From positions 372,001 through 436,000 of the forward strand of contig NZ_WXUB01000002.1 of the NCBI RefSeq assembly GCF_011799805.1: DNA of 64,000 nt. The letters run 5' to 3'. Positions 15,644 to 60,255 of this stretch are shown one piece after another. The first letter of the stretch is position 1. Each line of letters starts with the position of its first letter. Below the pieces are notes generated by a model. It saw nothing but the letters and a program-made list of their open reading frames with translations, was not told where the DNA came from and did not search any database. The position numbers and the translations under genes were made by a program. Source of the DNA: Maribellus sediminis (GTDB lineage Bacteria > Bacteroidota > Bacteroidia > Bacteroidales > Prolixibacteraceae).

Positions 15644-18508
15644 TTATAGATTGATTTTTAGCTTATGACCATCGTAATCGACATACTGACCTGTTGCATC
15701 AACTTTGAAGCCTTGAGCCTTGTCTTTACTTACTTGTACGACCACAAACGATCTCTTTTTAAGCATCCCGTCAAATTCTCCTTCCCTGTCTCCAATTGTC
15801 AGTGTCCCTTCAGCTTCGTTATAGGTGAATGGAATATTAGAGTAAGCTCCTTTCTCATAGTTGTAATTTGTTCCTTCATCTTCATAAAGAGTGAAAGCGC
15901 CATCCTGCCCGCGATAAACATATAACATGATTTTTGCGGCCGGCTTCTCGTCGGTGTATTGAATTTCAGGTCCAACCGGAATGATGGAGCCTGCTTTTAC
16001 AAACAACGGTATCCTTTCATAAGGCGCTTCAACAGTCATTTTTTGACCACCGGCAATGTACTCTCCCGAATAAAAATCATACCAGCCGCTCTTATCGGGG
16101 AAATAAACATTCCGTTGTCTGGCTTTATAATGATATACCGGACAAACCATCAAAGCCGGCCCAAACATAAATTGGTCGTCAATGTTTTGCACCTCTGTGT
16201 CGGACGAAAAATCCATGACCAATGGACGCATGATGGTATAATCGTTGAACCAGGTCATACCGGCCATTGTATAGATATATGGCATTAACCGGTAGCGCAG
16301 ATTGGTATAATACAAAATTGAATTATAAGCTGGCTCACCTTTCGGCGCAATATTCCACATTTCGCGGAACGGGTACTGCCCGTGCGAGCGGTATAAGGGA
16401 GCAAATGATCCGAATTGGTACCAACGGGTATTCAACTCACGCCATTCGTTATAATCAGCATTTACTTTTTCGGTTTTATTGTACTCCATCTGTCCGGCAA
16501 CATAACGGTCTTCGACACAGAAGCCGCCAATGTCCATTGTCCAATAAGGGACGCCGCTTATCGAGAAATTTAAGCCTGCAGAAATTTGCGCTTTCATATC
16601 CTCCCAGCGAGTGCCAATGTCGCCGCTCCAGGTTGCAGTTGAATACCGTTGTAAACCGGCAAAACCGGAACGGGTAAGCAGGAAAACTCGTTTATTGGCG
16701 TCGACGCTGCGTTGTCCGTCGTAAATAGCTTCGGCATTCATCAAAGCGTATGTATTGAAATATTCTGCTGAAGGACCCAAAGCAGTCGGCCCGCATAAGG
16801 CTTTCCGGTATTTCATATCAGTGCAGTCGAGTACGTTCGGTTCGCTGGCATCCATCCACCAGGCGTCAATCCCTAAAGGATATAACTTATCATAGATTTG
16901 TTTCCAAAATAGCTTCCTGGCTCCGGCTGAATAGGCATCGTAAAACGAACCAACATAGCCCGGGCCGACCCAGTCGCGGATGCTGTCTTTTACTGCTTGC
17001 CGGTACATCCATCCTTTTTCATCAAATTCCTTGAAATGTTCGGTCGTAGCATAAAACTTTGGCCACACCGAAATCATCATCCGCCCGTTCATGCTATGAA
17101 TGGAATCGACCATTGCTTTGGGGTCGGGGAAACGTTTCTCGTCAAACTCATGGCTGCCCCATTCGCTTTCTCGCCAGTAATTCCAATCCAAAACAATGTT
17201 GTCGATAGGAATTTTCCGCTCTCTGAATTCTTTTAGTGTTGAAAGTATTTCATCCTGTGTTTTATACCGTTCCCGGCTTTGCCAAAAGCCCATAGCCCAT
17301 TTAGGCATGATTTGCGATTTTCCGGTGAGTTTCCGGTACCCTTTGATGATTTCATCCATCGAACTGCCGTACACAAAATAGTAATTCAGTTCTTTATTCA
17401 TTTCGCTCCACCAGACCTGACTGCTCTGTTCCTCCTCAGGAAGAGGCGTTTGAACACGCAGGCCGAAGTACGATCTTCCGCCGTCAGGCTTCCACTCAAC
17501 ACGCAGCGGCACACGTTTCCCGGCCTCAAGCTCAAACTCAAATTTGTAACTATTAGGGTTCCAGGCAGTCCTCCAACGTTCCGGCACTACCAATTCATTA
17601 TTCACGTACACTTTCACATATCCGGCGTAATACAGGATAAAACGGTAGGTTCCGCTTTGTGGCGCTTCAATCTCTCCTTCATAAGTTACATTGGCCCCTT
17701 TCAACGGAAAATTTTCAGGAAGATTCTTAATGGTTTTTACATCTTCAAAATACAGCGAATCTTCTTTGCGTTCCAATCGCTGTAATTCATTATTAAAAGG
17801 CAGATAAGTTCCGGTCAAGCTGCCTGGCTGACTATTTTTATCATACAATTTAAAAACCCTGTTTAGCTGCTGGTAGTCACGACTGTCGCCAAAGCGGCTT
17901 AATGAATAGCTGTCCCACAAAAGCCCATAGTTTTTGTTGGAAACAATAAAGGGCACCGAAACTTTAGTATTGTATTGAAATAATTCTTCGCTTTTTCCTT
18001 TATAGTTGAACTCGTCCGACTGATGTTGTCCCAATCCGTAGAATGCCTCATCGACAGGCGAATCGAACAATTGCCGAACCGAATAGGCGTTTGTACCTTC
18101 TACTTCAATAGGAGTGAACGTTTTGCCTCCTCCTGACTTCTCAGCCAGGATTACCACTCCATTTTTGTTTTTAAATTTCACACCTCCGTCCGATTTCGAA
18201 ACGGCAACAATCAATCGGGAAGTGCTCAACACAATTGAGTCTTTCCCATCTTCAACCTGATAAGGTACCGTTTGAATACAAGGAATGATAATAAGGCTTG
18301 AATCCGTCGGGAATTCGTCATCGGGGGTTGCTGACACGTGAATCAATTCATCGCTCAGCACCTGTATGCGTAACTTGTTCGCTTTAGTTTTTCTGGTTTG
18401 TTCCAGATTTAAAATTATACCGTCATCTGTTATTATATATTGTGGCTGAGAGCACGCTGCAAATAACCATACGGAAAAGACATATACAAGTATTCTTTTG
18501 TTTTTCAT
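15644..18508 (-). CDS. GH31 alpha-xylosidase with PA14 insert, lipoprotein
   Basis: Predicted to remove non-reducing alpha-1,6-xylose from xyloglucan oligosaccharides. The ATG at 18508 is chosen because it gives a lipoprotein signal (MKNKRILVYVF... FAAC); the open frame extends 18 codons further without improving it. The N-terminal beta domain is interrupted by a PA14-like module (about residues 200-355, including APQSGTYRFILYYAGYVKVYVNNE). This arrangement is known in xyloglucan GH31 alpha-xylosidases of Cellvibrio and Bacteroides. The nucleophile is Asp in WWMDASEPN near residue 552, and the acid/base is Asp in WSGDIGTRW near 629. It is the last gene of the PUL, 355 nt behind the esterase. 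The 954-residue length is normal for PA14-containing members. Confidence 0.88.
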   Translation of the reverse strand: MKNKRILVYVFSVWLFAACSQPQYIITDDGIILNLEQTRKTKANKLRIQVLSDELIHVSATPDDEFPTDSSLIIIPCIQTVPYQVEDGKDSIVLSTSRLIVAVSKSDGGVKFKNKNGVVILAEKSGGGKTFTPIEVEGTNAYSVRQLFDSPVDEAFYGLGQHQSDEFNYKGKSEELFQYNTKVSVPFIVSNKNYGLLWDSYSLSRFGDSRDYQQLNRVFKLYDKNSQPGSLTGTYLPFNNELQRLERKEDSLYFEDVKTIKNLPENFPLKGANVTYEGEIEAPQSGTYRFILYYAGYVKVYVNNELVVPERWRTAWNPNSYKFEFELEAGKRVPLRVEWKPDGGRSYFGLRVQTPLPEEEQSSQVWWSEMNKELNYYFVYGSSMDEIIKGYRKLTGKSQIMPKWAMGFWQSRERYKTQDEILSTLKEFRERKIPIDNIVLDWNYWRESEWGSHEFDEKRFPDPKAMVDSIHSMNGRMMISVWPKFYATTEHFKEFDEKGWMYRQAVKDSIRDWVGPGYVGSFYDAYSAGARKLFWKQIYDKLYPLGIDAWWMDASEPNVLDCTDMKYRKALCGPTALGPSAEYFNTYALMNAEAIYDGQRSVDANKRVFLLTRSGFAGLQRYSTATWSGDIGTRWEDMKAQISAGLNFSISGVPYWTMDIGGFCVEDRYVAGQMEYNKTEKVNADYNEWRELNTRWYQFGSFAPLYRSHGQYPFREMWNIAPKGEPAYNSILYYTNLRYRLMPYIYTMAGMTWFNDYTIMRPLVMDFSSDTEVQNIDDQFMFGPALMVCPVYHYKARQRNVYFPDKSGWYDFYSGEYIAGGQKMTVEAPYERIPLFVKAGSIIPVGPEIQYTDEKPAAKIMLYVYRGQDGAFTLYEDEGTNYNYEKGAYSNIPFTYNEAEGTLTIGDREGEFDGMLKKRSFVVVQVSKDKAQGFKVDATGQYVDYDGHKLKINL

Positions 18509-18863: not shown

Positions 18864-19790
18864 TCAAAAACCATTTGCTTCAAGCCATTTACGACAGGCT
18901 TCAGTCCATGTGCCTTCTGTATTTGCCGGATGGCTCATGCCATATCCATGTCCGCCCGATTCATAAATATGAAGTTCGCAGGGTACATCATGTTTTTTCA
19001 GCGCTAATGCATAATCGATACTGTTCTGCACCGGAACGACATCATCGTCGAATGAATGCACCAAAAATGCCGGTGGAGTTTGCTCATTTACCTGGTACTC
19101 ATTGGAAAAATGCTTCACCTGTTCCGGCGTAGAATTGTTGCCAAGCAAATTCAGGCGTGAGCCCCAATGGGTAATTGTCGAATCCATCGAGATTACCGGA
19201 TAAATAAGCAAGGAGAAGTCGGGCCGGGCGCTGATCGAATCTTCGGGTTCATACACTTTCTCATTATAATGGGTTGAAATTGTGGATGCTACGTGTCCCC
19301 CCGCAGAAAATCCCATGATGCCGATCTTATCAGGATTAATTCCCCATTCTTTGGCATGGCGCCTGACGAACCGAATCGCTCTCTGCCCGTCTTGCAGGGG
19401 GCCAATCGATTTGTTTTCCATGATGACATCGTCAGGCTGACGGTAAGTCAACACGAAAGCGGTTATACCCAAGCTGTTGAACCATTGGGCCATCTGCAGC
19501 CCTTCATGCCGGATGGCAAGTCCTGAATACCCGCCTCCCGGACAAATAACAACTGCCGTACCCGTTGCCTTTTCCTCCGAAGCAGGGTAAAAATAGAGGT
19601 CGGGACTGACAATGGAATGTTTATCGACCCAGCCTGCCGTTGTATCGACATTCTGTTTGAATTCTTCACTCTTGATTGCTCCGGGAACTTTCCCATTCCA
19701 AAGGTCAATAACTTTGTTTTGGGCTGAAAGACTCCCGATTGTGGCTACCAGGCCAACAAATGCCACAACTAATTTTTTAAAATCTAACAT
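18864..19790 (-). CDS. Secreted alpha/beta-hydrolase esterase (acetyl-xylan-esterase-like)
   Basis: Likely periplasmic deacetylase acting on acetylated oligosaccharides. A signal peptide ends ...GSLSAQ at about residue 23. The oxyanion segment ICPGGGYSGL precedes the catalytic machinery: Ser in GFSAGGH near residue 162, Asp in HSFDDDVVP near 248 and His in GGHGYG near 279. That is the full Ser-Asp-His triad of the BD-FAE/Axe-type alpha/beta hydrolases. The 308-residue length fits. Only 2 nt separate it from the GH2 gene upstream, so the two are cotranscribed. Substrate is inferred from context and could be acetyl or another acyl group. Confidence 0.8.
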   Translation of the reverse strand: MLDFKKLVVAFVGLVATIGSLSAQNKVIDLWNGKVPGAIKSEEFKQNVDTTAGWVDKHSIVSPDLYFYPASEEKATGTAVVICPGGGYSGLAIRHEGLQMAQWFNSLGITAFVLTYRQPDDVIMENKSIGPLQDGQRAIRFVRRHAKEWGINPDKIGIMGFSAGGHVASTISTHYNEKVYEPEDSISARPDFSLLIYPVISMDSTITHWGSRLNLLGNNSTPEQVKHFSNEYQVNEQTPPAFLVHSFDDDVVPVQNSIDYALALKKHDVPCELHIYESGGHGYGMSHPANTEGTWTEACRKWLEANGF

Positions 19791-19792
19791 TC

Positions 19793-21580
19793 TTATTTTC
19801 TTTTATAGTATTCGTTCATAATATACCACGCTTTCTTTTTCTCTCCATTTTCGGATATCAAGCCTTTCCGGTTGTAGCCATTTTGGTAAACCTGGTTCAT
19901 CCGGCTTAACGACCGGTAGTCGAACAACAGCCACGGGCACACCCCGCACAGATTGGGAACAATGCCGAACATTTCAGTCTGATCCTTGTAGATTTTCTCC
20001 TGATAGGCTTCTGTCCAGTACGCTGCCTCATCGATTGGGCCACCAGTGCTACCAAACAAAGCTTCGCCGCCAAACTCGGAAATAAATACAGGTTTGTCGG
20101 GGAAAGCTACATTCCATTTTGTTTCCGATGGTTTGCCTTGCCAAGGTTTGTACCAACCAACATACTCATTAATGGCTATCAGTTCGGAATAGTTGTAAAG
20201 TGGATCCCACACCTTAAAGGTATTGTTGTTGTATCCGTGAGTATTTATCACGTGTACAATCAACCGGGTTGAATCCAAAGCCCTGCACTTTTGAGTTAGC
20301 TCAATAAGCGCCTCGTTGCGGTTTGGTGTTCCGGGATAGGTTTCGTTCGAAAGACACCAAATGGCAACTCCACAGTGATTTTTGTCGCGACGAATCATCT
20401 CGTTTAACATGGTCTCCAGTTTTTGAGGAACAAGGCTATCGGAAAACTGAATATGCTGATACACCGGCAACTCATCCCAGACCATGATTCCCATTCGCTC
20501 TGCTTGTTTAACCATGTTTTCACTGTGAGGATAATGGACTAATCTCACCAGGTTACACCCTAATTCTTTTGCAGCGTTCAATAATTTCCCGGCATCCTCA
20601 GCAGTATAAGCCCTCGCAGCTTTTGATGGGTTTTCTTCGTGAATATTTACTGCTTTCAGAAAAATTTCTTTGTTATTCAACAGTACTTTGTTTCCCAGTA
20701 CTTCAACGCTCCTGAAACCAATATCGTCGGCAAGGGTATCGGTTTCACTTTCAACCATTACCTTGTAAAGCTTCGGGTTTTCGGGCGACCAAAGTTTAAA
20801 AGCCGAGTTAAACTCAAGCTTTGCCCAACCTTCTTTATCGGTTTTTGTACGATATTCCAGATTCTGTTCAGGAATTTTAACCACAATATCCTGTTTAAGC
20901 TTGTTCCCGTTCAGTTTTACCCAGCCAGAAACGGTGTTTAAGCTCCCCTTCTTGAGCTGAATGAAGTAATCTTCAACAAAAGTTTCGTTGGTTTCGATTA
21001 AATCCACATCGCGGGTAATTCCACCATAATTGAACCAGTCGTAACCGGTACCGGGCAAACCGTTGCCCAAACGCTTGTTGTCAACCTTTACAACAATGGT
21101 GTTGCTACCATCCTTTACTTTACCTGTAATTTCAAACTGAAAAGGGGTAAAACCGCCTTCGTGGCTTCCCAGCTTTTCGCCGTTAAGGTACACATCGGCC
21201 AAATAATATACCGCCCCGAAATGCAAAAACAATCGCTTGTCTGCCTTCACGGAATAGTTAAATTGTTTTTTGTACCAAACCGTTCCTTCAAAATAAGTCA
21301 GCTCGCATAATTGCGAGTTAAAATCGCCCGGCACCTGCAACTCTGGGCCCCCTTCAAATGAATATTCCACAAAATCTGTCTTCTTTTGTGGCTTCTTTTC
21401 CTGCCATACCTGTTTCCCTTCGCCAACCCCTATTGGGTCGATAATGACTGTCCATTTGCCATTTAAACTTGTCGTTTTTCTTGCCTGAACATTAATCATG
21501 GCCGTTTGGGCATTTGCACTGCCTGCGAAAAAAATAAAAATCAAAAAGACTAACATCCATTCTTTTACTTCTGTCTTCAT
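19793..21580 (-). CDS. GH2 glycosidase with NxK motif (beta-glucuronidase-like)
   Basis: Compact 595-residue GH2 of the beta-glucuronidase size class, with signal peptide ending ANAQ. The order is jelly-roll sugar-binding domain (about 35-200), Ig-like domain (200-300) and TIM barrel. The acid/base is Glu in CLSNETYPG near residue 412, and the nucleophile is Glu in FISEFGGEALF near 502. Near residues 570-572 it has N-R-K followed by GL, aligned with the NxK motif that E. coli GusA uses to grip the uronic acid carboxylate. This suggests a beta-glucuronidase or beta-galacturonidase rather than a beta-galactosidase. In a xyloglucan locus that would fit rare acidic side chains. Family is firm, specificity inferred. 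Confidence 0.8.
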   Translation of the reverse strand: MKTEVKEWMLVFLIFIFFAGSANAQTAMINVQARKTTSLNGKWTVIIDPIGVGEGKQVWQEKKPQKKTDFVEYSFEGGPELQVPGDFNSQLCELTYFEGTVWYKKQFNYSVKADKRLFLHFGAVYYLADVYLNGEKLGSHEGGFTPFQFEITGKVKDGSNTIVVKVDNKRLGNGLPGTGYDWFNYGGITRDVDLIETNETFVEDYFIQLKKGSLNTVSGWVKLNGNKLKQDIVVKIPEQNLEYRTKTDKEGWAKLEFNSAFKLWSPENPKLYKVMVESETDTLADDIGFRSVEVLGNKVLLNNKEIFLKAVNIHEENPSKAARAYTAEDAGKLLNAAKELGCNLVRLVHYPHSENMVKQAERMGIMVWDELPVYQHIQFSDSLVPQKLETMLNEMIRRDKNHCGVAIWCLSNETYPGTPNRNEALIELTQKCRALDSTRLIVHVINTHGYNNNTFKVWDPLYNYSELIAINEYVGWYKPWQGKPSETKWNVAFPDKPVFISEFGGEALFGSTGGPIDEAAYWTEAYQEKIYKDQTEMFGIVPNLCGVCPWLLFDYRSLSRMNQVYQNGYNRKGLISENGEKKKAWYIMNEYYKRK

Positions 21581-21651: not shown

Positions 21652-23199
21652 CTATATAAACTCAACTTTAAAAACGGTCGCAATTTCATCCATAGCTTCA
21701 GCACTGGGTGTTGTAAGCGTCAATTTATTTTCGCTGGCCGACCATTTTAACTCTTCGCCACTTCCAACCACGCTAACTCGTTTGATATTCTGCCCCGGAT
21801 TTGTCTCGAATACATGCTCCAACCCGATTTCTTTGCCAGAGTCGGGCAAACCCAATAAATAAACATACAGGGTATTTCCATCTTTCGATTTGGCAAAACG
21901 AACATCGTCTTTTGTGTATTTCATGGTAGCTGATTGTCCGCCAAAATGACCTTTCTCAAATTCAGCAATTCCGTAGCCAAAAACAGAATGTACACGCGTA
22001 TTGTACACCGCTTCCTTGTGTTTCTTAATCCATTCACCAATTGTAAGTAAAACGTCTTGCTGTTCTTGCGGGATGATGCCATTGGCCATTGGAGATACAT
22101 TTAACAGTACCACGCCTTTTTTACTCCACACGTCAATCATATTACGTATTATTAAATCGGCTTTTTTGTATTTCAGGCCATTGGTGTAGCACCAACTACC
22201 ATCACTAATGGTTATATCGGTTAGCCAGTATTTTTCCGAAATTTCTGTTTTCCCGCCCTGCTCAATGTCAAGAAGAGCCACACTATCAGGTAAGTCTTCC
22301 TGTTTATAAAAAGTTATCGGTTCCTGGCCGCGTTTTAAGGCTGTATTGTAATGATGGGCCACCATTTTTTGCCGGTATTCTTCAGGAACCATATCCAGCC
22401 ACGAATCAAACCAAATCATATCCGGGGCATATTTATCAACTACTTCATTTACCTGTCCCAACCAACGGTCGTGAAACTCATTAACGGGAATGTTGCCGTA
22501 CAGGTATTTAAGCTTTTCATCTTTGGTACTTGTAATTCCATTGGGGTCGTAGGCGAAATGACTATCAAAACCAACCTGACCGCTATTGGCCCAATGGACA
22601 CTGTCGTTGGCATAACGTTGCAGGTTTCGCGCATGATGGAAGGTTGCTATGGTTTTCATATCGCGCTTTTTAAGCTCCGATAACAGCTCTCCGGCAATGT
22701 CCTTTTCAGGCCCCATATCTGCAGCATTCCACGGATTTATTTCACTATCCCACATGGCAAAACCATCGTGATGTTGCGCAGCCAGGCCGGCAAATTTGGC
22801 TCCGGCATTTTGAAACAGGTCGGCCCACTCCGCGGCATTAAAATGTTCGGCCTTAAACAAAGGGATAAAATCATGATAATCAAAATCAGCTCCGTAGTTT
22901 TTCACATGGTAATCGCGAATTTCCGCTCCCCAATGTTCTTTTTCAAGCTTGGTATAGTACATCCATGCAGGATACCATTCGGAACTGAAAGCAGGTACGG
23001 AATAAATTCCCCAGTGGAAATAAATCCCGAGTTTGGCATCTTTAAACCATTCGGGTTGACTGTTGTGTTGGGCTAACGATTCCCAGGTTGGCTCGTAAAC
23101 ATTCACCTCCTGTTTGGTTTGTTTCGAACTGCAATTAATTAAGGTGCAAGCTGTAGCCAACAGGCTAACTGCTCTTAAAGTTCTTTTAAGTTTATTCAT
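21652..23199 (-). CDS. GH29 alpha-L-fucosidase A, lipoprotein
   Basis: Retaining alpha-L-fucosidase, 515 residues. The N-terminus MNKLKRTLRAVSLLATACTLINC has a lipobox-like cysteine, so the enzyme is probably membrane-anchored. The family start FKDAKLGIYFHWGIYSVPAFSSEWY and AAQHHDGFAMWDS are classic GH29. The nucleophile is Asp in DMIWFDSW near residue 266. A C-terminal beta-sandwich (about 400-515) follows. It lies between the two GH2 genes with 71 and 103 nt gaps. It could remove terminal fucose from xyloglucan. It differs clearly from the other two GH29 proteins here, so it is not a recent duplicate. Linkage preference cannot be read. Confidence 0.88.
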   Translation of the reverse strand: MNKLKRTLRAVSLLATACTLINCSSKQTKQEVNVYEPTWESLAQHNSQPEWFKDAKLGIYFHWGIYSVPAFSSEWYPAWMYYTKLEKEHWGAEIRDYHVKNYGADFDYHDFIPLFKAEHFNAAEWADLFQNAGAKFAGLAAQHHDGFAMWDSEINPWNAADMGPEKDIAGELLSELKKRDMKTIATFHHARNLQRYANDSVHWANSGQVGFDSHFAYDPNGITSTKDEKLKYLYGNIPVNEFHDRWLGQVNEVVDKYAPDMIWFDSWLDMVPEEYRQKMVAHHYNTALKRGQEPITFYKQEDLPDSVALLDIEQGGKTEISEKYWLTDITISDGSWCYTNGLKYKKADLIIRNMIDVWSKKGVVLLNVSPMANGIIPQEQQDVLLTIGEWIKKHKEAVYNTRVHSVFGYGIAEFEKGHFGGQSATMKYTKDDVRFAKSKDGNTLYVYLLGLPDSGKEIGLEHVFETNPGQNIKRVSVVGSGEELKWSASENKLTLTTPSAEAMDEIATVFKVEFI

Positions 23200-29165: not shown

Positions 29166-29178
29166 TCCAACCAATCAA

Positions 29179-31221: not shown

Positions 31222-31359
31222 AGTCTTTTTTTTAGTAACGAGGAGGCCATTCATTAAATTTTTTCTCCCTAACAATGACCTTTCTTTGTTTGCTTACACC
31301 TAATTATCAATATAATTACTTAAAATTTGTCTTATTTTCAAGTTTGTAATTCGTAGAAA

Positions 31360-49908: not shown

Positions 49909-50020
49909 AGAACATAAATTTAGATTATTAAAGTCCGCTTTAATTAGCTCAATATCAGCTGCTAATTTAGACCCAATAGCATCCATAGAGGGGCTACCAT
50001 GTATTTTATGAGGGATGATT
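49909..50020 (-). promoter_or_regulatory. Leader of susC 1, homologous to that of susC 2
   Basis: The roughly 110 bp before the ATG aligns with the leader of the second susC: both contain ACATAAATTTAGATTA, AGCTCAATATCAGC and CCATGTATTT (plus-strand reading). CCATGTATTT begins 89 bp upstream of the ATG here and 90 bp upstream in the other copy. Shared control by the hybrid sensor is likely but inferred. No TAnnTTTG box was found, which fits an activator-dependent promoter. Confidence 0.5.
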
Positions 50021-50376
50021 ATGTGTTATTTGAAAGTGGCCTCAGACCATAGTTTCTAGTAAACTTTTAAACTCTAACTGTTTAATCCTATTCTTTAAAC
50101 CTGCTAAACGTTTTATGGCTGGCGACCTCTCCTAATCATAAGTAGGATAACAAAACCGGAAACATGGTAAAAGATAAAAACGGGACGGAGTCAACCGAAT
50201 TGAAAGTAAAAAGCTAAAAGATCTTTCAAGCACTTGTTCCTGATGTTTCGGGGATAATCATCGTTACCTGACATTTTTTGTATTCGAAGGAAGAATTTAA
50301 AAATAGTAAAGGCCCTTGATTGTTGGCTTGGCGGGTTTCGAAGTTTCACTTTGTGTTATTGACTTTTCAAAAAAAA
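50021..50376. other. Gene-free spacer upstream of susC 1
   Basis: About 350 bp with no coding frame I can support. It should contain the core promoter and any binding site for the regulator, but I could not identify a specific operator. Confidence 0.5.
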
Positions 50377-50436: not shown

Positions 50437-51261
50437 TCAATGTGAATCATAATAGTCTTTTGTAATATAGTTATAGATTAACCAGTTGTTTGGATCTTTT
50501 TTTGCAATCAATTGCATGTGATCCGCGTCAAGGCTTTTTATCGTCATTATTGCATTCCAGTTAGCAACCTGGCCTCCTTGTGCTTTATCATGAATAACCT
50601 CGGCACCATAAGTGATCAATTCACTGCTTTCCGGGAACAACATAAAAGTACCCGTACCTGATAAATCAGGGAACATTTTATTGTCACAGGTGAAATTCGC
50701 ATTTCCAATCAAATCAAAGGTCATGGTTCCATAATCGCCGGCGCTAACTCCAGCCCACGGAATATCTGAAAAAGCAGGATCCCATTCCCATCCGGTGCCA
50801 CCAAAATAAAATGGCCCCGCAAAGTATTTGCTCACAGCGTTGGCATCCAAATCCAGCACCCAGGTTTTCGATTGGTTAATCCCCCCGGTAAGGTATGTCC
50901 ACATCGGATCGCTTACAAAATCTTCGTCTACGGTTGTTATTGTAAACGTGTATGGATCCGCAGTTACAAGTCCGCCGGGAGTTTCAACGGTATAAGTAAT
51001 GGTGTAATCACCAGGGAACGGTATGGTTATGGTCTCATCCAATTTAATTGAAGTACCTACGGGTGTTACCCAATATGGCTGAGCCCCCGGAGTTTCACTT
51101 TTCAGATAGAATTTATTTGGATTCTGAGAATCTACCGTCACAGAGAATTTCACTGCGCTTTTGTCCAACGGCTCCTGCAATTCATATTCGTCGGGCAAAC
51201 ATGCTGTGAACATGATTGCCACCAATGACAATACCGAAAATATTCTTAATATCTTGTTCAT
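50437..51261 (-). CDS. PUL surface lipoprotein with PKD-like domain, function unknown
   Basis: A 274-residue lipoprotein, lipobox MFTAC near residue 21. The N-terminal part (about 35-110) looks like a PKD/Ig-like sandwich ending in TYTVETPGGLVTADPYTFTI. The C-terminal part (about 125-274) starts with SKTWVLDLDA and is rich in Trp, Phe and Gly (GPFYFGGTGWEWDP). Proteins of this kind often follow SusD in beta-glucan-related PULs and are taken to be glycan-binding (SGBP) proteins. I do not recognise a catalytic site. It is 23 nt after susD 2, and a terminator follows. Confidence 0.75.
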   Translation of the reverse strand: MNKILRIFSVLSLVAIMFTACLPDEYELQEPLDKSAVKFSVTVDSQNPNKFYLKSETPGAQPYWVTPVGTSIKLDETITIPFPGDYTITYTVETPGGLVTADPYTFTITTVDEDFVSDPMWTYLTGGINQSKTWVLDLDANAVSKYFAGPFYFGGTGWEWDPAFSDIPWAGVSAGDYGTMTFDLIGNANFTCDNKMFPDLSGTGTFMLFPESSELITYGAEVIHDKAQGGQVANWNAIMTIKSLDADHMQLIAKKDPNNWLIYNYITKDYYDSH

Positions 51262-51284: not shown

Positions 51285-52940
51285 TTATTCCCATCCTGGA
51301 TTTTGTGTCAACGTTCCGTTTGAGAGCGTGATCTGCGTATTAGGAATCTGCATAAATCCTTTTGTAGCCTCAAATTTAGCAGCATCATAAGTAACCTGAT
51401 CTTCAACTCCGCCACTCACAACAGTTTGCGATGCCCCGGCAATTACACTCGCTGCGTTATCCAACCCGGTACGTAACAAGTCCCAGTAACGAATCCCTTC
51501 AAAGGCAAACTCAAATTTGCGTTCGGTCATAATATCGCTTGCAGCAACTGCTGAAACGGCTTCTAAACCTGCACGGGTGTGAACTTGATTAAAGTAATCC
51601 AACGCATTGGATGACCCAAGTTCTGCAGCCATAAGCAGCACATCGGCATAACGAATAAGAATGTAGTCCTGATCCTGCGATATTTGGAAGTCTTTTGAAC
51701 CACCGGTATCCGATGTTCCGTCAGGCAAAGCGGTAGGCGTATATTTTTTCACGGTATATCCAGTGTATTCGCGCTGATCGTTAATATCAAAAGAGCCTTC
51801 AATACCTTCTCCAACTATGTCGATAACAGAAGCGGCTTTACGTACATCGCCAGCTACATAAGTGTCAATAAACTTAGGATTAACCGTACAAGCTCCCCAG
51901 CCTTTTCCATAAGGAGAGAAATTTGTACCGCGCATTCCCATCATCACCAACCAGCGATTTCCATCGCTATTACCGTTATAGTCTGATGTACTGTTGAATT
52001 TTTGAGCAAACACAACTTCCTTGTTGCCTTTGCCTGCATACGCAGATTTGTCTAATGTATTATCGTCGGAATTTGGAACATAACTAGCAGCTGGCCAGAG
52101 GGTTTCAAAATCCTCAACAAGACCAAACTCGTTGCTGGAAATAACATCTTCAAGTCCGGCCAGTACTTCCTGTTTGGTTATCCCAAGATCGTCCTTTCCA
52201 TAGTAGCCGGTGTAAAACAGATAAACACGTGCCAGCAGTGCTTCTGCGGCATACCGTGTTGCACGCCCGTCGTTTGTTGCGGCCTGTGCTTTTGGGTAAG
52301 CATCTGCCGGTATATTTTCCACTGCAAATTTAAGATCCTCAACGATCTGCTTATATGTATCTGCAGGGTCTGCCTGTGGAACGTAGTCTGTGGTAGGTTC
52401 GGTCAACAATGGAACACGTTCGAAAAGACGAACCAATTCAAAATACTCCAAAGCCCGTATAAAACGTGCTTCACCTTCAATACGGTTCTTTGCAATCGAA
52501 TCTGTAGCAGCTTCGCCGGAATCCCATTCCACAACATCAGGAAGTTTTTTCAACAAAGTGTTACAACGATAAATACCTGTATAATACAATTTCCATCCAT
52601 CGTTGAAGATATCAACATCTGCCGGTGACTGGCTCTTGTCAAACCGATCCATCAATTGTAAGCCTCTGCCGTCGTTGGCACCACCGCCACCGAGGCATTC
52701 GTCAGCTGCAACTACCGAAGTTAAATAGAACGAAAATGCAGTAACAGTAACTTGATAACCATCATAACACCCCACCAATGCCATCTCGGCATCGGCTTGC
52801 GTTTTGTAAAAGTTTGCATCCAGAAGCTGAGTTTTTGGCTCGACATTCAAAAAGCTGTCTGTACATGATGATAAAAGCCCCAGAGTTATTACCCCGGCTA
52901 TCATGATATATAATCTTAATCTCTTCATAATAATTTTCAT
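51285..52940 (-). CDS. susD: SusD-family glycan-binding lipoprotein (pair 2)
   Basis: A 551-residue SusD homolog. ATG at 52940; a second ATG four codons on (52928) also gives the lipoprotein signal with Cys in LLSSC. SusD features are TDSFLNVEPKTQLLDANFYKTQADAEMAL at the start (partly quoted: NFYKTQADAEMAL), RIEGEARFIRALEYFELVRLF near 155, and the C-terminal RKFEFAFEGIRYWDLLRTG near 475. It follows SusC 2 by 9 nt. It is only distantly similar to the first SusD, so the two pairs probably bind different parts or sizes of the glycan. Confidence 0.94.
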   Translation of the reverse strand: MKIIMKRLRLYIMIAGVITLGLLSSCTDSFLNVEPKTQLLDANFYKTQADAEMALVGCYDGYQVTVTAFSFYLTSVVAADECLGGGGANDGRGLQLMDRFDKSQSPADVDIFNDGWKLYYTGIYRCNTLLKKLPDVVEWDSGEAATDSIAKNRIEGEARFIRALEYFELVRLFERVPLLTEPTTDYVPQADPADTYKQIVEDLKFAVENIPADAYPKAQAATNDGRATRYAAEALLARVYLFYTGYYGKDDLGITKQEVLAGLEDVISSNEFGLVEDFETLWPAASYVPNSDDNTLDKSAYAGKGNKEVVFAQKFNSTSDYNGNSDGNRWLVMMGMRGTNFSPYGKGWGACTVNPKFIDTYVAGDVRKAASVIDIVGEGIEGSFDINDQREYTGYTVKKYTPTALPDGTSDTGGSKDFQISQDQDYILIRYADVLLMAAELGSSNALDYFNQVHTRAGLEAVSAVAASDIMTERKFEFAFEGIRYWDLLRTGLDNAASVIAGASQTVVSGGVEDQVTYDAAKFEATKGFMQIPNTQITLSNGTLTQNPGWE

Positions 52941-52949: not shown

Positions 52950-55900
52950 TTAAAATTTAAGATTAACTCCAACCAGTACCGTTCTCGGACGTGGATAATA
53001 TCCTAAATCAACACCGGAAACCCAGGATTCCACACCATATCCGATTTCAGGATCCATACCATTGTACTTGGTAAATGTAAAGGCATTCTGTACCGAAGTA
53101 TATAACCGGCATTGACTGATTGCTTTCAAATTAATCAGTTTTGAAAAGTCATAACCAAGGCTAACATTGCTTATCCGTAAATAATCTCCATCGTGCACAT
53201 ACAAATCAGAGAATATCCAGTTCAGATTATTTACCGTTACGCGAGGAATACGATTTGATGTACCTTCTCCGGTCCAACGTTGTAATATAGCAGTGGTGTA
53301 ATTTGATTGCTGCCCAACCTGTCCGTACGATTGAACGATTTTGCTGCCCATCGAAAAACTGGCATCAACGCCAAAATCGAAGTTTTTATATTGGAAGCCA
53401 AAGTTAAATCCTCCACTTAATTTTGGAAGACCGTTGCCTAGATCAACTTTATCGTTGTTGTCAATTACACCATCCATATTCTGATCAACAAATTTCACAT
53501 CGCCAGGCGTAGCACCACCAGGCTGCAAAATTCCTTTTCCGGCTGCCATCCATGCATCAATATCCTCCTGATTCTGGAAAAGCCCATTGGTTTCGTATCC
53601 CCAGAAATATCCAATGGCATATCCGTTTTCTGTCCGATAAAATTCTTCTGAGTTGGCATAAAGCATATTTGTCAACCCATGTACAATTCCATCTGCAGTT
53701 GGAATTAGCCCTACTGAGTTTTTATTATAAGCGCCATTCACCCCGATGTAATAGCTGAAATCATTAATATTGTCGTTCCAGTTGACAGCCAGTTCAACCC
53801 CTTTGTTTTTCACACTACCACCATTAATCCACGGTGCTTTTGCACCGGCAGTTGCTGGTACCGGCGCTTGCACCAACCAGTCTTTGGTAGTTTTTACATA
53901 GTAGTCTCCGCTTACGGTTAAACGCCCCTTCAGAAAGCGGGAATCAAAACCGATGTCAGTTTGTTCCGATGTTTCCCAACGCAGGCTTTCGTTTGACAAT
54001 TGCCCCTGGTAAGCTCCCGGAGTGTTTACTCCGGCGTTACCAAAGTTGTAAAATGCTGCCGGATTGTTGCCACTAACTGCAGTTGAAGTACTGATTAGTG
54101 AGGCGTATTTAAAATCGGGAATACTCTGGTTACCAACCTGTCCCCAGCTTGCGCGTAGTTTCAGTTGTTCGAGCCAGCCTTTTGTTGAACTCATAAAAGA
54201 CTCTTCGCTGATTGTCCAACCAGCAGAAACCGAAGGGAAATAGCCCCAATGGTTACCTGGAGCAAACTTAGAAGAACCGTCAGCTCTCAACGTTGCGTTT
54301 AAAATATATTTTTCCTTGTAGTTGTACCCAATTCTTCCAAAATACGAAAGGCGGCGATAATCAACCGAAGGAGCACCTCCAACAGATTTTGTTTTAATAA
54401 CCGTTGTTCCGTCATCGGCAAGATGAGCTACTCCTGTTGTATTATCCAAATAGGCATGTCCAAAATCATCCAATTGCGGTACCAGGTTCCAGTTGCTACC
54501 TGACATTCCTATGCCTTGATATCTTACCGACTCAGTTCCGAGCAATACGCTAAAAGCGTGATCTTCATTAATATCGAAGTTGTACCCTACCGTATTCGTC
54601 CAGGTTAGCGTAAAACCGCTGCTCATACCCTGGCTAACAGTTTCATGGTCTTCGTTGTACGAATAAATCGAAAACCGATAATAGGGAGTAAAACCCCGGG
54701 AATTGGAAGAATAGTAGTTGAGTCCAAAAACGGTTCTTACCTTCAGGTTTTTAATGGGTTCCAATTCGGCGTAAACGTCGCCTAAAAGTCTTTGGCTTCT
54801 GTTTATCCTATGGTTGGTTAACATGGCACCGTATGGGTTACCATCGGCCTTATTCCATTTTGCGTCACTGGTATCGTTAAAAGGACTGCCGTAAATATTA
54901 TTATCGCTATATACAGGTGCTAAAGGAGAAGTATTAAAAGCACTACGCAACGTATTATTGTATTGGTTCCCATCGCTGATGCCTTTAGTGTCGATAAAAT
55001 TCAGGTTTAGATGCTGCCCCACAACAAGCACATCTTTGTACACTTTGTGTTCGGTGTTTAACCTGAATCCATACCGATCGTAGTTCGATACTGCGGAACC
55101 GCCAACCACACCTTCCTGCGAAGTATAACTAAGCGACATAGCATAAATGGAAGTTTCAGAACCACCACTAATATTCAGCGAATAATTTTCGGTTTTAGCA
55201 TCTTCCTTTAGCATCTGCCCCATCCAGTCGGTATCAGCGAGATAGCCATCCTTTGCTTCCCAGTCGAAAGGATTGAGACCAGAGTTAATCTGTTGCTCAT
55301 CCATAATCATCCGGTATTCCTTTGCATTCAATAACGGAACTTTCCTTTCAACATTCTGAATGCCTCGATATGCATCGAATGAAACCTGGCCATGTCCTTT
55401 CTTACCTTGTTTTGTTGTAATAAGAATTACACCATTAGCTGCCTGCGATCCATAAATCGCGGCCGAAGCAGCATCTTTTAAAACATCAATTGACTCGATA
55501 TCTGCTGCATTCAGGGTTGTAATATCACCTTCTACTCCATCAACAATATACAATGGTTGTGAACTACCGATTGTACCTAAACCGCGAATGGTCACTTTCA
55601 TGCCAGCTCCTGGTTGCCCTGAAGTAGATGAAATGTTCACACCAGGAGTTTTTCCTTGCAAAGCTTGCAATGGGTTAGTGGTATTCATTTTTGCCAATTC
55701 CTCACCCTTCACCTGAACGGTAGCACCGGTTACCAATTTTTTCTTTTGAACGCCATAACCAACAGCAACAATTTCTTCCAGTCCGATAGCGTCTTCTTCC
55801 ATTGTAACATCTATCGTACTTCTTCCTGCTACCCCAATTTCGGTCTTTTTCATCCCCACGAAAGAAAAGACGAGAACTCCATCTCCGGGAACATCTTGCA

Positions 55901-56123
55901 ATGTATATTTTCCATCAACATCAGTAATTGTTCCCCGGCTTGTTCCTTTTACAACAATGCTAACACCCGGCAAAGACTCTCCATCGTGTTGAGATTTTAC
56001 CTTTCCGGAAATTGCAATGTTTTGTCCGAAGGAAGGAACGCCCCATATTACCATTAACAAAATGACATAAAGACTCCTAATTGTAGCCCCCCGCCATATT
56101 AAAAAACTACGCGTTTTTTTCAT
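52950..56123 (-). CDS. susC: SusC-family TonB-dependent transporter (pair 2)
   Basis: Outer-membrane importer, 1057 residues, ATG at 56123. Signal peptide ends PSFGQ. CarboxypepD_reg-like domain (about 36-110), the LEEIVAVGYGVQKKK plug start near 115, the SusC hallmark DVLKDAASAAIYGSQAANGV near 210, and a barrel ending in VLVGVNLKF. Its first 120 residues match SusC 1 closely, then similarity falls to ordinary family level. It is the first gene after the hybrid regulator, with a 118-bp gap. It forms a unit with susD 2 and the PKD-like lipoprotein. Confidence 0.95.
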   Translation of the reverse strand: MKKTRSFLIWRGATIRSLYVILLMVIWGVPSFGQNIAISGKVKSQHDGESLPGVSIVVKGTSRGTITDVDGKYTLQDVPGDGVLVFSFVGMKKTEIGVAGRSTIDVTMEEDAIGLEEIVAVGYGVQKKKLVTGATVQVKGEELAKMNTTNPLQALQGKTPGVNISSTSGQPGAGMKVTIRGLGTIGSSQPLYIVDGVEGDITTLNAADIESIDVLKDAASAAIYGSQAANGVILITTKQGKKGHGQVSFDAYRGIQNVERKVPLLNAKEYRMIMDEQQINSGLNPFDWEAKDGYLADTDWMGQMLKEDAKTENYSLNISGGSETSIYAMSLSYTSQEGVVGGSAVSNYDRYGFRLNTEHKVYKDVLVVGQHLNLNFIDTKGISDGNQYNNTLRSAFNTSPLAPVYSDNNIYGSPFNDTSDAKWNKADGNPYGAMLTNHRINRSQRLLGDVYAELEPIKNLKVRTVFGLNYYSSNSRGFTPYYRFSIYSYNEDHETVSQGMSSGFTLTWTNTVGYNFDINEDHAFSVLLGTESVRYQGIGMSGSNWNLVPQLDDFGHAYLDNTTGVAHLADDGTTVIKTKSVGGAPSVDYRRLSYFGRIGYNYKEKYILNATLRADGSSKFAPGNHWGYFPSVSAGWTISEESFMSSTKGWLEQLKLRASWGQVGNQSIPDFKYASLISTSTAVSGNNPAAFYNFGNAGVNTPGAYQGQLSNESLRWETSEQTDIGFDSRFLKGRLTVSGDYYVKTTKDWLVQAPVPATAGAKAPWINGGSVKNKGVELAVNWNDNINDFSYYIGVNGAYNKNSVGLIPTADGIVHGLTNMLYANSEEFYRTENGYAIGYFWGYETNGLFQNQEDIDAWMAAGKGILQPGGATPGDVKFVDQNMDGVIDNNDKVDLGNGLPKLSGGFNFGFQYKNFDFGVDASFSMGSKIVQSYGQVGQQSNYTTAILQRWTGEGTSNRIPRVTVNNLNWIFSDLYVHDGDYLRISNVSLGYDFSKLINLKAISQCRLYTSVQNAFTFTKYNGMDPEIGYGVESWVSGVDLGYYPRPRTVLVGVNLKF

Positions 56124-56241
56124 ACAACATAAATTTAGATTAGTAAATTAGCTTTTAATCAGCTCAATATCAGCGGCGAAATTAGGGATCGACAACACCA
56201 GTACAGGGTATGCCATGTATTTAATATAGGACAACGATGTC
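56124..56241 (-). promoter_or_regulatory. Leader of susC 2 and regulator-susC intergenic region
   Basis: A 118-bp region carrying the same leader blocks as susC 1, including CCATGTATTT beginning 90 bp before the ATG. As there is no room for much else, a promoter activated by the adjacent hybrid sensor is likely here. No standard -7 box is seen. Confidence 0.5.
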
Positions 56242-59200
56242 TTAATTGGGATTATTTAGTCTGCGTAGATAGTCGGAAGGAGAAATACCAAATTCATTTT
56301 TGAAGTTAACAGAGAATCTTTTAGGGGAGTTGAAGCCGACTGCATAAGCAATTTCGGCTATATGTAACTGACTTTTCTCCAAAAGCTGGCGACCGCGTTT
56401 TAAACGAATTGTACGGATAAACTCAGCGGGCCCTTTTCCTGTGATGCTCATTAATTTTTTATACAAGTGGCCCCTGCTAAGGCCAACCAAACTGCCAAGA
56501 TCTTCAACCGAAAATTCGGGATCATCAATGTGTTCTTCAACTGCCTTAATAGCATCCTCTATCAGTTGTTCATCCAGCGAAGTAATTGTTATCTCGGAGG
56601 GAGAAACATCCATTTTCTGGCTAAAGGAAAGATGGCACTTCTCTGTCCATTCAAGAAATTTTCGAATGCGCAGTTTTAATAAATTGAAATTAAAGGGTTT
56701 GGTGAGATAATCATCAGCTCCCAGTTTCAGTCCTTCCAACTGATATTCTTCCGTAGTACGTGCGGTCAACAAGATCACAGGAATATGTGACCACTGGATA
56801 TTGGTTTTAATTTTTTCACAAAGTTCAGTTCCGCTCATAACAGGCATCATTACGTCGCTCACCACTATAGATATATCATTCTCCTGTAATTGGTCCAGAG
56901 CTTCTTGTCCGTTATAGGCCACTAATACTGTATATTCATCTGAAAGGCTGTCGGCCATAAACTCACAAAAATCTTTGTTATCATCCACAAACAGAAGTAC
57001 CGGATTGGCAGCAATCCTTTGTTCCACTTCCTGTTCCTGTTCAAACTGCTCTTCATTCCCTGTTGTATCATCGGAGAGCTCATCCTGAATATCTTCATTC
57101 CAAACCGGAAGCCTGACTAAAAATGTACTTCCCTGAGGTTTGTTATCCTCAACGGTGATACTACCTTCGTGCAACCGAACATATTCATTCACAATATGCA
57201 ACCCAATTCCACTTCCCGTTTTTTCAGGGTGCCGGGAAGACTGGAAAAACCGGTCGAATACATGGGGCTTGTCAATGTCCAAAATTCCATCTCCCGAGTC
57301 CGACACAGACAAATAAATATCATCATCTTCCCGGGAAATACAAACTGTTACAACTCCACCATCAGGCGTAAATTTAAAAGCATTGGAAAGCAAATTCAAC
57401 ATTACCTTCCGTAATTTGTCCGGATCAAATTGTGTTGTCAGCACTTTTAGTTTGCTATCAAATGAAAACTCAATCTGGCGTTCGGCGGCAGTACCCTGAA
57501 ATGTGAAACACAACTCCCTGATAAAGCTCACCAAATCTCCTTGTTTACTCCTCAAAACCTCACCTCCCGCATCCAGTTTCCGGAAATCAAGCAAGGTGTT
57601 GATTATGTGCAATAACTGCTCGGCACTTTTGTTTATCATTTCTAGCTTTTTACGTAAGCCAGCATCCATTGATCCATTTAATAATGTTTGCAAGGGTGTG
57701 AGTATTAGTGTAAGCGGTGTACGAAGATCATGACTTATATTTGTAAAAAACCGAAGCTTCATTTCATAAAGATTAGTTTCCTGTTCTCGTACCAATTGTA
57801 ATCTTTGCGCTTCGAGCTTCATTTTTTGTTTCCTTCGGCTTCTATATATACTGTAAACAACAAAAGAAATTCCCGACAAAATGTACAGGCCCCAAGCCCA
57901 GCCCGACAAATAAAATGGAGGAGTTACTTTAATATCCAAATAGGTAACCTGATCGCTCCATTCGCCATCGCTATTGCATGCTTTTATTTCAAGTTCATAA
58001 TCGCCTGGTGCTAAAGAAGAAAACACAATCCGGTTTTCCGAAGTGTTTTGCCATTGTTCCTGTAATGCTTTCATTCGGTAGGCGTATCTCACCTTATTGG
58101 GATATAACAAATCGCCTGTTGTATATTTTATTTGAATTAACTTATCGGTGTACCGAAATGTCAACGAACGAGTCAGTTCCATAGGACGTTCCAGCAATTT
58201 ACGTCCTTTGTAAAGCGAGTCGACCGCGATTTGATCAATCCCCACACTCAAGCCTGTAAAAATTACCTTAGCGGGAGGTTGGTTTTTCTCCAGCATTTTA
58301 TTTGGATTAACAACTGAATATCCTTCGGTGCCACCAACAAGAATATCTCCGCTACGAACTTTACAAATAGCACGATTATTAAAATAGTTATCAATCAGTC
58401 CGTCTTCATCTGTAAAGTTTTCACAAGTAATCATTAGGTTGCCTTGCCTGTCTTGTTCTGCAGTAATTACAGAAAGCCCGTTACTTGTTGTTACCCAAAG
58501 GTTTTGATGATCATCTTCAACAATACCGCGAATGATGTTATCACGCAGACCATTTGTTTTATCAATGTAATAGATGGTATCTTTCTTTACATCCCATAAA
58601 CTCAATCCTTCGGCGTGCCCCAGCCAAATATTGTCCCTACTGTCTTTGTACACACTGCTAATTAACCCCTGTTTGAAATTCTGTGTACCTGATCTATTTC
58701 CCAGGTAACTGCTGCAATCGTTTGTTTTTATATCAACAATATACAGGCCGTAAACAGTTGCAATGTATAATTTATCGCCTCCATCATAAAACATATCCAT
58801 TGGGTGCTGCATTCCTTCACACTCAATCTCCATTGAGTTTAAATCCTCCTCTCCGTTGCGCAATAGCTGTATAGCTCCCCCCAAAGTACCTATCCATAGA
58901 TTGCCATACCGGTCTTCTTTCAAACTCCAGATATTATTGCCTGCTAGGTCGCTGTTTTCAGTAGAAAACCGGTCAACCTTTCCGTTATCATAACGATAAA
59001 GGCCATCTAAATATGTCCCGATCCATATTCGTCCTTTCCGGTCCTCCAAAAGCGACACTATCGGACTTTTCGGGACTGATAGCTGCCTGATACCCTTTTT
59101 CTTATCTTTTACAAATAATCCATTTCCATCGGTACCCAACCATATTCTACCACCACTATCTTCAAGAATTACGCTTACATCCTCACAATTTGCCTGCTCA

Positions 59201-60255
59201 ACATTTACGACACTCTGTAAACTGTTATGATAATACGAAATACCATTTTTATTGTGCCCTATCCATATAATCCCATTGTCATCATGGTATAAATATTCAA
59301 TATGATTAGAGGCAATTGACGAACTTATATTCTGATCTTCCTGCAAATTTATTACCTCTCCGCTGGCCACATTATAAATCAGCAGCCCGTTATGGTCGGT
59401 ACCAATCCAGATATGCCCGTTTCTGTCATCCATAAAACGCAACATACGCTTGGGTTGTCCTTCTGTTTTTAGCTGTAACCTTACCCATGCAACCGTTGGT
59501 TTTTTCCTGTAAAAAACCACATCGGTACTACTCGACCAAAGCCATAAGCCGCCCTTATAATCAGCATAAAGTTTGTTATCTAATTGAGGATTAAAATCAT
59601 CAGGCAAATCAAGCACTTGTTGTCTGCCGGTTTGTTTGTTTATTTGCCACAAAAGGCCTGGCCTCAAAAAACTATACAGGTTCTTCCCGTCATCGCTCAA
59701 CTCAACTGCTACAACATCGTCCAGCCTCAGATTCAAGCTAAATGTTTTTAACACTTCTTTTTGTGTATCATAAAAAAAGAGTTGCTGCCCATTCAAAACC
59801 CACAAGTCTTTTTCCTCATCAATGTATACCCTGTAATTGCCATCAACTACTATTTCAAATCTTTGTAAAAAACCAGGAACATCGTTTATAAAATTATCTT
59901 TGTCGCGGTTGTACACCGTGTAGGTGCCAGTACTGATCCAAATGTTACCCAATCCATCTTCCTGCATTCCCTGGATATTATTCGACAGCATGGAATTCGA
60001 AAGGTTGGCTTCTGTGGTATATGTTTTAAATCCGTACCCGTCATAACGATTCAGGCCGTATTCTGTACCAACCCACAAAAAACCATAGCTGTCTTTTAGA
60101 ATTGAGCTGACATTGCCGTTTGAAAGCCCATCCTTTGTTGTCAGGTGGAGGAAAACATAAGACGGTTGAGCTATTGACTGGACAACCACCGAAACAAAGA
60201 AAACAAGCAAGCCCAATAAGCCTCCTATCCTTTTATTATGTTTTCCGTGCTTCAT
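56242..60255 (-). CDS. Hybrid two-component system regulator (HTCS) of the PUL
   Basis: One-protein sensor and regulator, 1337 residues. Signal peptide, then two seven-bladed periplasmic propellers built from Reg_prop repeats (GFLWVGTEYGLNRYDG, NGIIWIGHNKNGISYY, GRIWIGTYLDGLYRYD and more), a Y_Y_Y domain near 700-770 and a transmembrane helix near 783-802. In the cytoplasm: HisKA with His in ISHDLRTPLT near residue 840, HATPase (LLSNAFKFTPDGG, GSGIGLHIVNEY), a receiver with Asp in VVSDVMMPVMSG near 1133 and a C-terminal AraC-type HTH (about 1240-1335, GFNSPKRFSVNFKNEFG). It senses an oligosaccharide in the periplasm and activates the locus. Known HTCS use the same order. Confidence 0.96.
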   Translation of the reverse strand: MKHGKHNKRIGGLLGLLVFFVSVVVQSIAQPSYVFLHLTTKDGLSNGNVSSILKDSYGFLWVGTEYGLNRYDGYGFKTYTTEANLSNSMLSNNIQGMQEDGLGNIWISTGTYTVYNRDKDNFINDVPGFLQRFEIVVDGNYRVYIDEEKDLWVLNGQQLFFYDTQKEVLKTFSLNLRLDDVVAVELSDDGKNLYSFLRPGLLWQINKQTGRQQVLDLPDDFNPQLDNKLYADYKGGLWLWSSSTDVVFYRKKPTVAWVRLQLKTEGQPKRMLRFMDDRNGHIWIGTDHNGLLIYNVASGEVINLQEDQNISSSIASNHIEYLYHDDNGIIWIGHNKNGISYYHNSLQSVVNVEQANCEDVSVILEDSGGRIWLGTDGNGLFVKDKKKGIRQLSVPKSPIVSLLEDRKGRIWIGTYLDGLYRYDNGKVDRFSTENSDLAGNNIWSLKEDRYGNLWIGTLGGAIQLLRNGEEDLNSMEIECEGMQHPMDMFYDGGDKLYIATVYGLYIVDIKTNDCSSYLGNRSGTQNFKQGLISSVYKDSRDNIWLGHAEGLSLWDVKKDTIYYIDKTNGLRDNIIRGIVEDDHQNLWVTTSNGLSVITAEQDRQGNLMITCENFTDEDGLIDNYFNNRAICKVRSGDILVGGTEGYSVVNPNKMLEKNQPPAKVIFTGLSVGIDQIAVDSLYKGRKLLERPMELTRSLTFRYTDKLIQIKYTTGDLLYPNKVRYAYRMKALQEQWQNTSENRIVFSSLAPGDYELEIKACNSDGEWSDQVTYLDIKVTPPFYLSGWAWGLYILSGISFVVYSIYRSRRKQKMKLEAQRLQLVREQETNLYEMKLRFFTNISHDLRTPLTLILTPLQTLLNGSMDAGLRKKLEMINKSAEQLLHIINTLLDFRKLDAGGEVLRSKQGDLVSFIRELCFTFQGTAAERQIEFSFDSKLKVLTTQFDPDKLRKVMLNLLSNAFKFTPDGGVVTVCISREDDDIYLSVSDSGDGILDIDKPHVFDRFFQSSRHPEKTGSGIGLHIVNEYVRLHEGSITVEDNKPQGSTFLVRLPVWNEDIQDELSDDTTGNEEQFEQEQEVEQRIAANPVLLFVDDNKDFCEFMADSLSDEYTVLVAYNGQEALDQLQENDISIVVSDVMMPVMSGTELCEKIKTNIQWSHIPVILLTARTTEEYQLEGLKLGADDYLTKPFNFNLLKLRIRKFLEWTEKCHLSFSQKMDVSPSEITITSLDEQLIEDAIKAVEEHIDDPEFSVEDLGSLVGLSRGHLYKKLMSITGKGPAEFIRTIRLKRGRQLLEKSQLHIAEIAYAVGFNSPKRFSVNFKNEFGISPSDYLRRLNNPN

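Follow-up and report, generated by a model that had tools for sequence, protein, structure and literature searches.

A polysaccharide utilization locus (PUL) predicted to act on xyloglucan occupies positions 15644 to 60255 of the window, the 64,000-nucleotide stretch of DNA analysed here, which forms part of contig C6 of a 5.6-Mb genome (G000). The locus consists of 22 open reading frames (ORFs), every one on the minus strand, which run from a hybrid two-component system (HTCS) regulator at 60255 to a GH31 gene at 15644. Named according to Pfam and NCBIfam domain calls, the genes follow one another in the order HTCS, SusC1, SusD1, LP274, SusC2, SusD2, SGBP-B (a surface glycan-binding protein), BACON-GH5, GH97, CE20, BACON-SASA, GH29a, a clan GH-A enzyme with a type IX secretion system (T9SS) tag, GH43, GH42, GH29b, GH51, GH2L, GH29c, GH2S, a BD-FAE-type esterase, and GH31. 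A first-pass annotation of the same DNA had counted 20 genes in one direction; the single orientation from HTCS to GH31 stands, while the count is 22. The regulator (56242..60255) carries Reg_prop, Y_Y_Y, HisKA, HATPase_c, Response_reg, and HTH_18 domains, and with the two SusC and two SusD proteins that had also been proposed, all seen by Pfam, the HTCS, SusC, and SusD components characteristic of a xyloglucan utilization locus (XyGUL) lie together in one cluster.

The order of these genes is not a product of chance, since 21 of the 22 are collinear in Draconibacterium sediminis (G002), to which the Draconibacterium-like host of the locus is closely related. Integration at the neighbouring tRNA-Leu gene (15055-15141) was considered and rejected: the last 16, 18, 20, and 25 nt of the tRNA are single-copy in the window and GC content is even, giving no hint of an island boundary, a result with which an older transfer of the locus remains compatible. 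The locus is regarded as a real, well-bounded xyloglucan locus of known kind, to which a second importer and a 5' cassette shared by the two SusC genes add two features beyond those first described.

Xyloglucan as the target is well supported by the agreement of four independent sequence markers, SusD2, SGBP-B, GH31, and GH5, bearing out the original designation of the locus as a xyloglucan-type PUL. SusC2 (46708..49986; TIGR04056, 818 bits), a TonB-dependent transporter of the Bacteroides ovatus-type system, probably begins at codon 27 of its ORF (49908), as judged by homology to SusC1. Among structure-database sequences, the nearest relative of the adjoining SusD2 (45100..46695), a protein of the SGBP-A type, is BACOVA_02651 of the B. 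ovatus xyloglucan locus (332 bits, the next molecule scoring 96). Similarly, SGBP-B (43517..45076) matches 5e7g, the B. ovatus SGBP-B (E 5e-10), and its C-terminal domain belongs to the xyloglucan-binding family PF18329 (81 bits against a cut-off of 26.4), an assignment that the first-pass annotation had named as a check of its reading.

The BACON-GH5 protein (41910..43436), a predicted endo-xyloglucanase, is closer to Cellvibrio CjGH5D (5oyc, 430 bits) than to BoGH5A (3zmr, 226 bits), its two nearest solved relatives, both of which are classed as GH5_4 (PMC11892949). The tryptophan of its GGW motif is kept and may correspond to Trp252 of BoGH5A, a residue that matters for xyloglucan activity (PMC11892949). 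Finally, the PA14-GH31 protein (15644..18562), a predicted alpha-xylosidase of the kind expected in a XyGUL, matches BoGH31A (5jou) over its length at 1555 bits. Elsewhere in the same genome (C5:1275978-1278803; L195-L197), away from the locus, a GH31 gene whose product is 58% identical to that of the window adjoins a second GH5 gene (43%), forming a further pair of xyloglucan type.

A second uptake system

The remaining importer is composed of SusC1 (52950..56123; TIGR04056, 892 bits), a TonB-dependent transporter with relatives in alternative xyloglucan loci; SusD1 (51285..52940), a Pfam SusD protein whose best solved relative is 6gcz (150 bits) and which matches BACOVA_02651 at only 65 bits; and LP274 (50437..51261), a 274-residue lipoprotein that went unnamed in the first-pass annotation and is a predicted surface glycan-binding protein. 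LP274 has no Pfam or NCBIfam match, and is predicted to adopt the two-domain fold of the beta-glucan-binding SGBP-B of Bacteroides fluxus (7kv5-7kv7); a fold's absence from the VIA-align list was not counted as evidence against it.

The surroundings of LP274 relatives were compared in 15 genomes other than that of the window, picked from 23 with an LP274 match. A GH31 protein at least 56% identical to that of the window is encoded in 10 of the 15, and in seven its gene and that of the LP274 relative are no more than 10 kb apart (G254, G203, G169, G061, G114, G217, G230). Five of these seven linked loci contain an adjoining GH5 match (G203, G169, G061, G114, G217) and, within the ten ORFs scanned, GH3 is found in G169, G114, G203, G254, and G230 and GH95 in G169; the probes used annotated no PF18329 protein in the stretches of the seven loci. 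In a genome from another family (G201), the same dual order of HTCS, SusC1, SusD1, LP274, SusC2, SusD2, SGBP-B, and GH5 recurs.

Taken together, gene content, homology, motifs, predicted folds, gain and loss among loci, and the SusC cassette suggest that the locus is probably a composite of two xyloglucan uptake systems with one HTCS and one large set of enzymes, the activities of which are all predictions. Several observations weigh against this interpretation. Firstly, the xyloglucans described so far offer no obvious substrate for a GH97 alpha-galactosidase. Secondly, Pfam finds no GH3 among the 22 locus proteins, and a GH3, while not treated here as defining, is usual in B. ovatus. Thirdly, LP274 relatives have no such GH31 nearby in eight of the 15 genomes (three encode it elsewhere, five have none at 56% identity or above), so that the SusCD-LP274 clade is not devoted to xyloglucan only; the genome studied here itself carries a more distant SusCD-LP274 set on contig C5, without GH31 in the stretch examined. 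Lastly, the second system could take up another beta-glucan, because the B. fluxus SGBP-B, the closest solved fold to LP274, binds beta-1,3-glucan and mixed-linkage glucan (PMC7157763) and the structures nearest to SusD1 include 7kv1, 7kv2, and 7kv4, which adjoin the B. fluxus SGBP-B entries in PDB numbering.

These considerations lead to an alternative in which SusC2-SusD2-SGBP-B alone serves xyloglucan and SusC1-SusD1-LP274 imports a different glycan of the same wall, such as mixed-linkage or beta-1,3-glucan, making this a dual-substrate locus. Such a reading would fit both the likeness of LP274 to a protein that binds laminarin and mixed-linkage glucan (PMC7157763) and the eight genomes in which a linked GH31 is missing, but the Pfam matches of the 22 locus proteins include neither GH16 nor GH158, and loci of the LP274 type repeatedly pair with GH31 alpha-xylosidase, GH5, GH2, and GH3. 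A dual substrate is considered rather unlikely, and a composite of two xyloglucan importers is the reading followed below.

The shared SusC 5' cassette

Although SusC1 and SusC2 are 36% identical overall, their genes share 499 nt of DNA at 83.8% identity, covering a leader of about 125 nt, the signal peptide, and an N-terminal extension. In SusC1 this cassette (55753..56248) consists of the 125-nt leader plus coding sequence for the signal peptide and the extension domain, reaching about codon 124, while in SusC2 its approximate 5' part (49784..50033) comprises the leader of about 125 nt before the start and the first 125 nt of coding sequence, from where the shared stretch likewise runs on to about codon 124. 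The likeness stops there, between the PF13715 domain (residues 38-119) and the plug (from 131). The shared sequence occurs at these two sites only in the genome, and among 41 SusC-like genes the pair ranks first of 820 by length of shared 5' DNA (84% over 482 nt), the part that follows being 29% identical. The next pair, a tandem on contig C9 (C9:147753 and C9:153061; L157, L150), shares 403 nt at 67%, beyond which identity drops to about 24%. In G201 the stretch common to both xyloglucan SusC genes measures 654 nt at 83% identity and by our count also stops near codon 124; this sequence is unique to that pair within G201 and differs from the Draconibacterium one, which points to two separate events or a long conversion.

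Two broader explanations were tried and set aside. Recent homogenisation is not borne out within the genus, where divergence between SusC1 and SusC2 (identity about 83-85%) equals or exceeds that between orthologues in most blocks, so that conversion is not now frequent. Nor is 5' sharing the rule for tandem SusC pairs: in nine same-strand pairs less than 9 kb apart, picked by eye from partial SusC sets of G000 (41 of 43 frames of at least 1000 residues), G201 (25 SusC), and G031 (36 rows), a long shared stretch is present in four and none in five. Sharing is also not limited to neighbours, since the strongest pair of G031 (L248 and L255, at C1:1740723 and C1:1720885) lies about 20 kb apart and has extension DNA 91% identical over 270 nt, followed by a part at 28%. 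Neither the 300 nt preceding SusC1 nor the 450 nt preceding SusC2 contain the promoter motif TAnnTTTG. The SusC N-terminal extension has been described as having an unknown role, with choice of TonB partner suggested (PMC7782687); neutral recombination in the region where the two genes are most alike would also account adequately for the cassette.

Side-chain enzymes and their gain and loss

The broad enzyme set attributed to the locus at the outset, with three GH29, two GH2, GH42, GH97, GH51, GH43, and three esterases, is seen by Pfam. The GH2 protein designated GH2S (19793..21580) is a predicted beta-hexuronidase and a suspected beta-galacturonidase. Among solved structures it is closest to 6d8k (610 bits), 6d89, 6d1n, and AqGalA (7vqm, 499 bits), a beta-galacturonidase, whereas classical beta-glucuronidases score at most 167 bits and the E. 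tayi beta-galacturonidase 6ncw is similarly low at 127 bits. An NxK motif in loop 8, which binds carboxylate, marks the GH2 beta-hexuronidases (PMC12243196), and the corresponding NRKG of GH2S is kept in all four full-length relatives found. Galacturonic acid (GalA) occurs on xyloglucan, with or without fucose, in Arabidopsis root hairs and in mosses (PMC9201394, PMC6508525), and in the portions of the literature covered by a search combining galacturonidase, xyloglucan, and GH2, no report was found of such an enzyme in a xyloglucan locus. An early suggestion that acidic xyloglucans, a rare form of the polymer, might be degraded has gained a candidate enzyme, through the uronate motif and the likeness to AqGalA.

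The T9SS-tagged enzyme (32999..34918), 94% identical to a D. sediminis protein, has conserved residues E207 and E343, and it is a member of a clan GH-A lineage that may be distantly related to GH51. Por_Secre_tail is its sole Pfam match at E ≤ 0.001, no catalytic family, GH51 included, being matched, and pairwise BLAST aligns it to the GH51 of the window at E 7e-5 over 193 residues; of the initial description, the tag and the clan hold. A family count from T9SS matches was discarded, as 55 of 61 relatives match P0002 yet nearly all rows reflect the sorting tail only; matches beyond the tail come from 11 genomes. A precomputed PF22848 assignment exists for two of the listed homologues, P0010 and P0101, though a scan of P0010 at the same threshold returned the tail only. 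A Paludibacter genome holds two nearby copies of the enzyme (L014:4301-6166 and L014:9998-11887; 65% and 68% identical to that of the window), and the family extends at 45-54% identity to records labelled Calditrichaceae, candidate division KSB1, and Ignavibacteriae (L017, L018, L019, L022, L023, L025, L026, of which L019 is labelled Bacteroidetes).

The CE20 esterase (37791..39737) has an ancillary domain inserted between its catalytic halves, matches 9ega (471 bits) and, over full length, 9h4u (456 bits) and 7kmm (XacXaeA, 444 bits), and carries GQSNM at 112 and NIH at 515-517, in keeping with the family motif of a GQSNM serine block and a histidine with an Asp or Asn anchor (PMC12313940). 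The family placement is confirmed by these relatives and motifs; its earlier use as a xyloglucan marker does not hold for CE20 alone, as characterised members are placed in xylan loci too and the family also occurs in pectin loci (PMC12313940). The other esterases are BACON-SASA (36525..37697; BACON, and PF03629 at 100 bits) and the BD-FAE-type protein (18864..19790; PF20434, 81 bits; GFSAG motif). GH97 (39750..41744) is predicted to be of the retaining alpha-galactosidase type (NF053844, 876 bits, cut-off 800), and GH2L (23303..25726) resembles GalB/GalA-like beta-galactosidases (NCBIfam GalB, 678 bits, under the cut-off of 900). PF01120 identifies GH29a (35138..36493; 287 bits), GH29b (27528..29174; 272 bits), and GH29c (21652..23199; 309 bits), and Pfam also assigns GH43 with GH43_C2 (31360..32997), GH42 (29179..31275; PF02449, 236 bits), and GH51 (25853..27379; PF06964, 163 bits).

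Four Draconibacterium loci (the window, G002 or L005 of D. sediminis, G024, and G013) were compared. Thirteen genes are common to all: HTCS, SusC2, SusD2, SGBP-B, GH5, GH97, CE20, GH29a, GH43, GH2L, GH29c, GH2S, and BD-FAE. G024 is without BACON-SASA, the T9SS-tagged gene, GH42, GH29b, GH51, and GH31, and G013 lacks the same six and also SusC1-SusD1-LP274; five enzymes (BACON-SASA, the T9SS-tagged enzyme, GH42, GH29b, and GH51) and the SusC1 block are counted as optional among the four. The T9SS-tagged gene was lost from G024 and G013, not gained in the window, because about 33 codons of its 3' end persist there between GH29a and GH43. At the G013 junction of HTCS, leader, and SusC2, the sequence turns SusC2-type at -130/-128, although two sites, -38 and +31, are SusC1-like; the pattern fits either an original state with one importer or a loss of the SusC1 block. 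The G013 SGBP-B (L068, 17500-19032 of the joined stretch) is 62% identical to that of the window while the adjoining SusC2 and SusD2 are 90-93% identical, and looks to have been swapped alone or to be fast-changing. Most other genes of the window are at least 90% identical to their D. sediminis orthologues, with GH42 at 78% and BD-FAE at 80%, suggesting exchange or faster change of GH42. G002, G013, and G024 each encode one GH31 of 56-57% identity outside the locus, and GH3 stands at the locus end in G002 and G013.

In the composite locus, polymer held at the surface by SGBP-B and LP274 would be cut by GH5 and perhaps also by the T9SS-tagged enzyme, and the two SusC-SusD pairs would import oligosaccharides possibly differing in decoration. 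To judge from their families, the esterases would take off acetyl groups, the GH29 enzymes fucose or L-galactose, GH2L and GH42 galactose or arabinopyranose, GH43 and GH51 arabinofuranose, GH2S uronic acid, and GH31 xylose, while release of backbone glucose would need a GH3 encoded outside the locus. The same enzymes allow another reading, that of a general hemicellulose and pectin side-chain locus which collected xyloglucan genes and whose uronidase, GH97, GH42, GH51, and GH29 enzymes are aimed at pectic side chains. GH2 beta-galacturonidase activity is indeed known from rhamnogalacturonan II (PMC12243196), and the occurrence of CE20 beyond xyloglucan is consistent with this; against it, the Pfam matches of the 22 proteins include neither a pectate lyase nor GH28, GH105, or a xylanase, and GH2S belongs to the 13 common genes along with the SGBP-B/GH5 core. 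This reading is judged highly improbable.

A bolder extension of the composite reading is put forward tentatively, and as a whole is doubtful: the locus would be built for acidic xyloglucan, with GH2S as a xyloglucan beta-galacturonidase that, together with a GH29 fucosidase, attacks GalA side chains of the root-hair or moss type, the T9SS-tagged protein the founder of a new, xyloglucan-active family in clan GH-A, SusC1-SusD1-LP274 a second, undescribed class of xyloglucan importer, and the shared SusC leader and extension a sign that this domain is matched within the locus independently of barrel cargo. If the interpretation of the locus is right, it would supply named candidates for an enzyme active on xyloglucan that contains GalA and for a second kind of surface binding protein and importer for xyloglucan, and a lead on the function of the SusC extension, given that co-located, divergent transporters in two families share leader and extension through unrelated cassettes. 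Because the optional genes are present in some of the four Draconibacterium loci and absent from others, these loci lend themselves to a natural comparison. Part of the side-chain variation in xyloglucan loci may already have been described. A 2023 paper called it unknown whether xyloglucans beyond the fucogalacto- and arabino- types are metabolised by gut microbes (PMC10952531).

Comparison with known systems

The D. sediminis locus, collinear as noted, differs in that GH3 occupies the place, downstream of BD-FAE, that GH31 takes in the window; its sole GH31 of the BoGH31A type, 57% identical, lies on another contig. The B. ovatus BoXyGUL (PMC4967831) shares with the window the order SusC-SusD-SGBP-B, the presence of GH5, GH2, GH31, and GH43, and the nearest structural-database relatives of SusD2 and GH31. 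Unlike the window locus, among whose 22 proteins Pfam finds neither family, it has GH9 and two GH3, while the three GH29, GH97, GH42, GH51, CE20, BACON-SASA, the T9SS-tagged enzyme, the predicted uronidase, and the second SusC-SusD-lipoprotein set are found in the window only. The initial view of a larger variant of the B. ovatus locus consequently applies to the part from SusC2, SusD2, and SGBP-B to GH5 and GH31, and not to the whole, which lacks these GH9 and GH3 genes and adds a different uptake system. A hybrid xyloglucan locus of Flavobacterium (PMC11892949) is alike in its GH5, nearer to CjGH5D than to BoGH5A, and in its CE20, and unlike in its single XusCD pair, the available part of that paper mentioning no GH2 uronidase, GH97, or second importer. 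The B. fluxus SGBP-B (7kv5-7kv7) belongs to a beta-1,3-glucan locus, whereas relatives of LP274 adjoin alpha-xylosidase loci in seven of 15 genomes.

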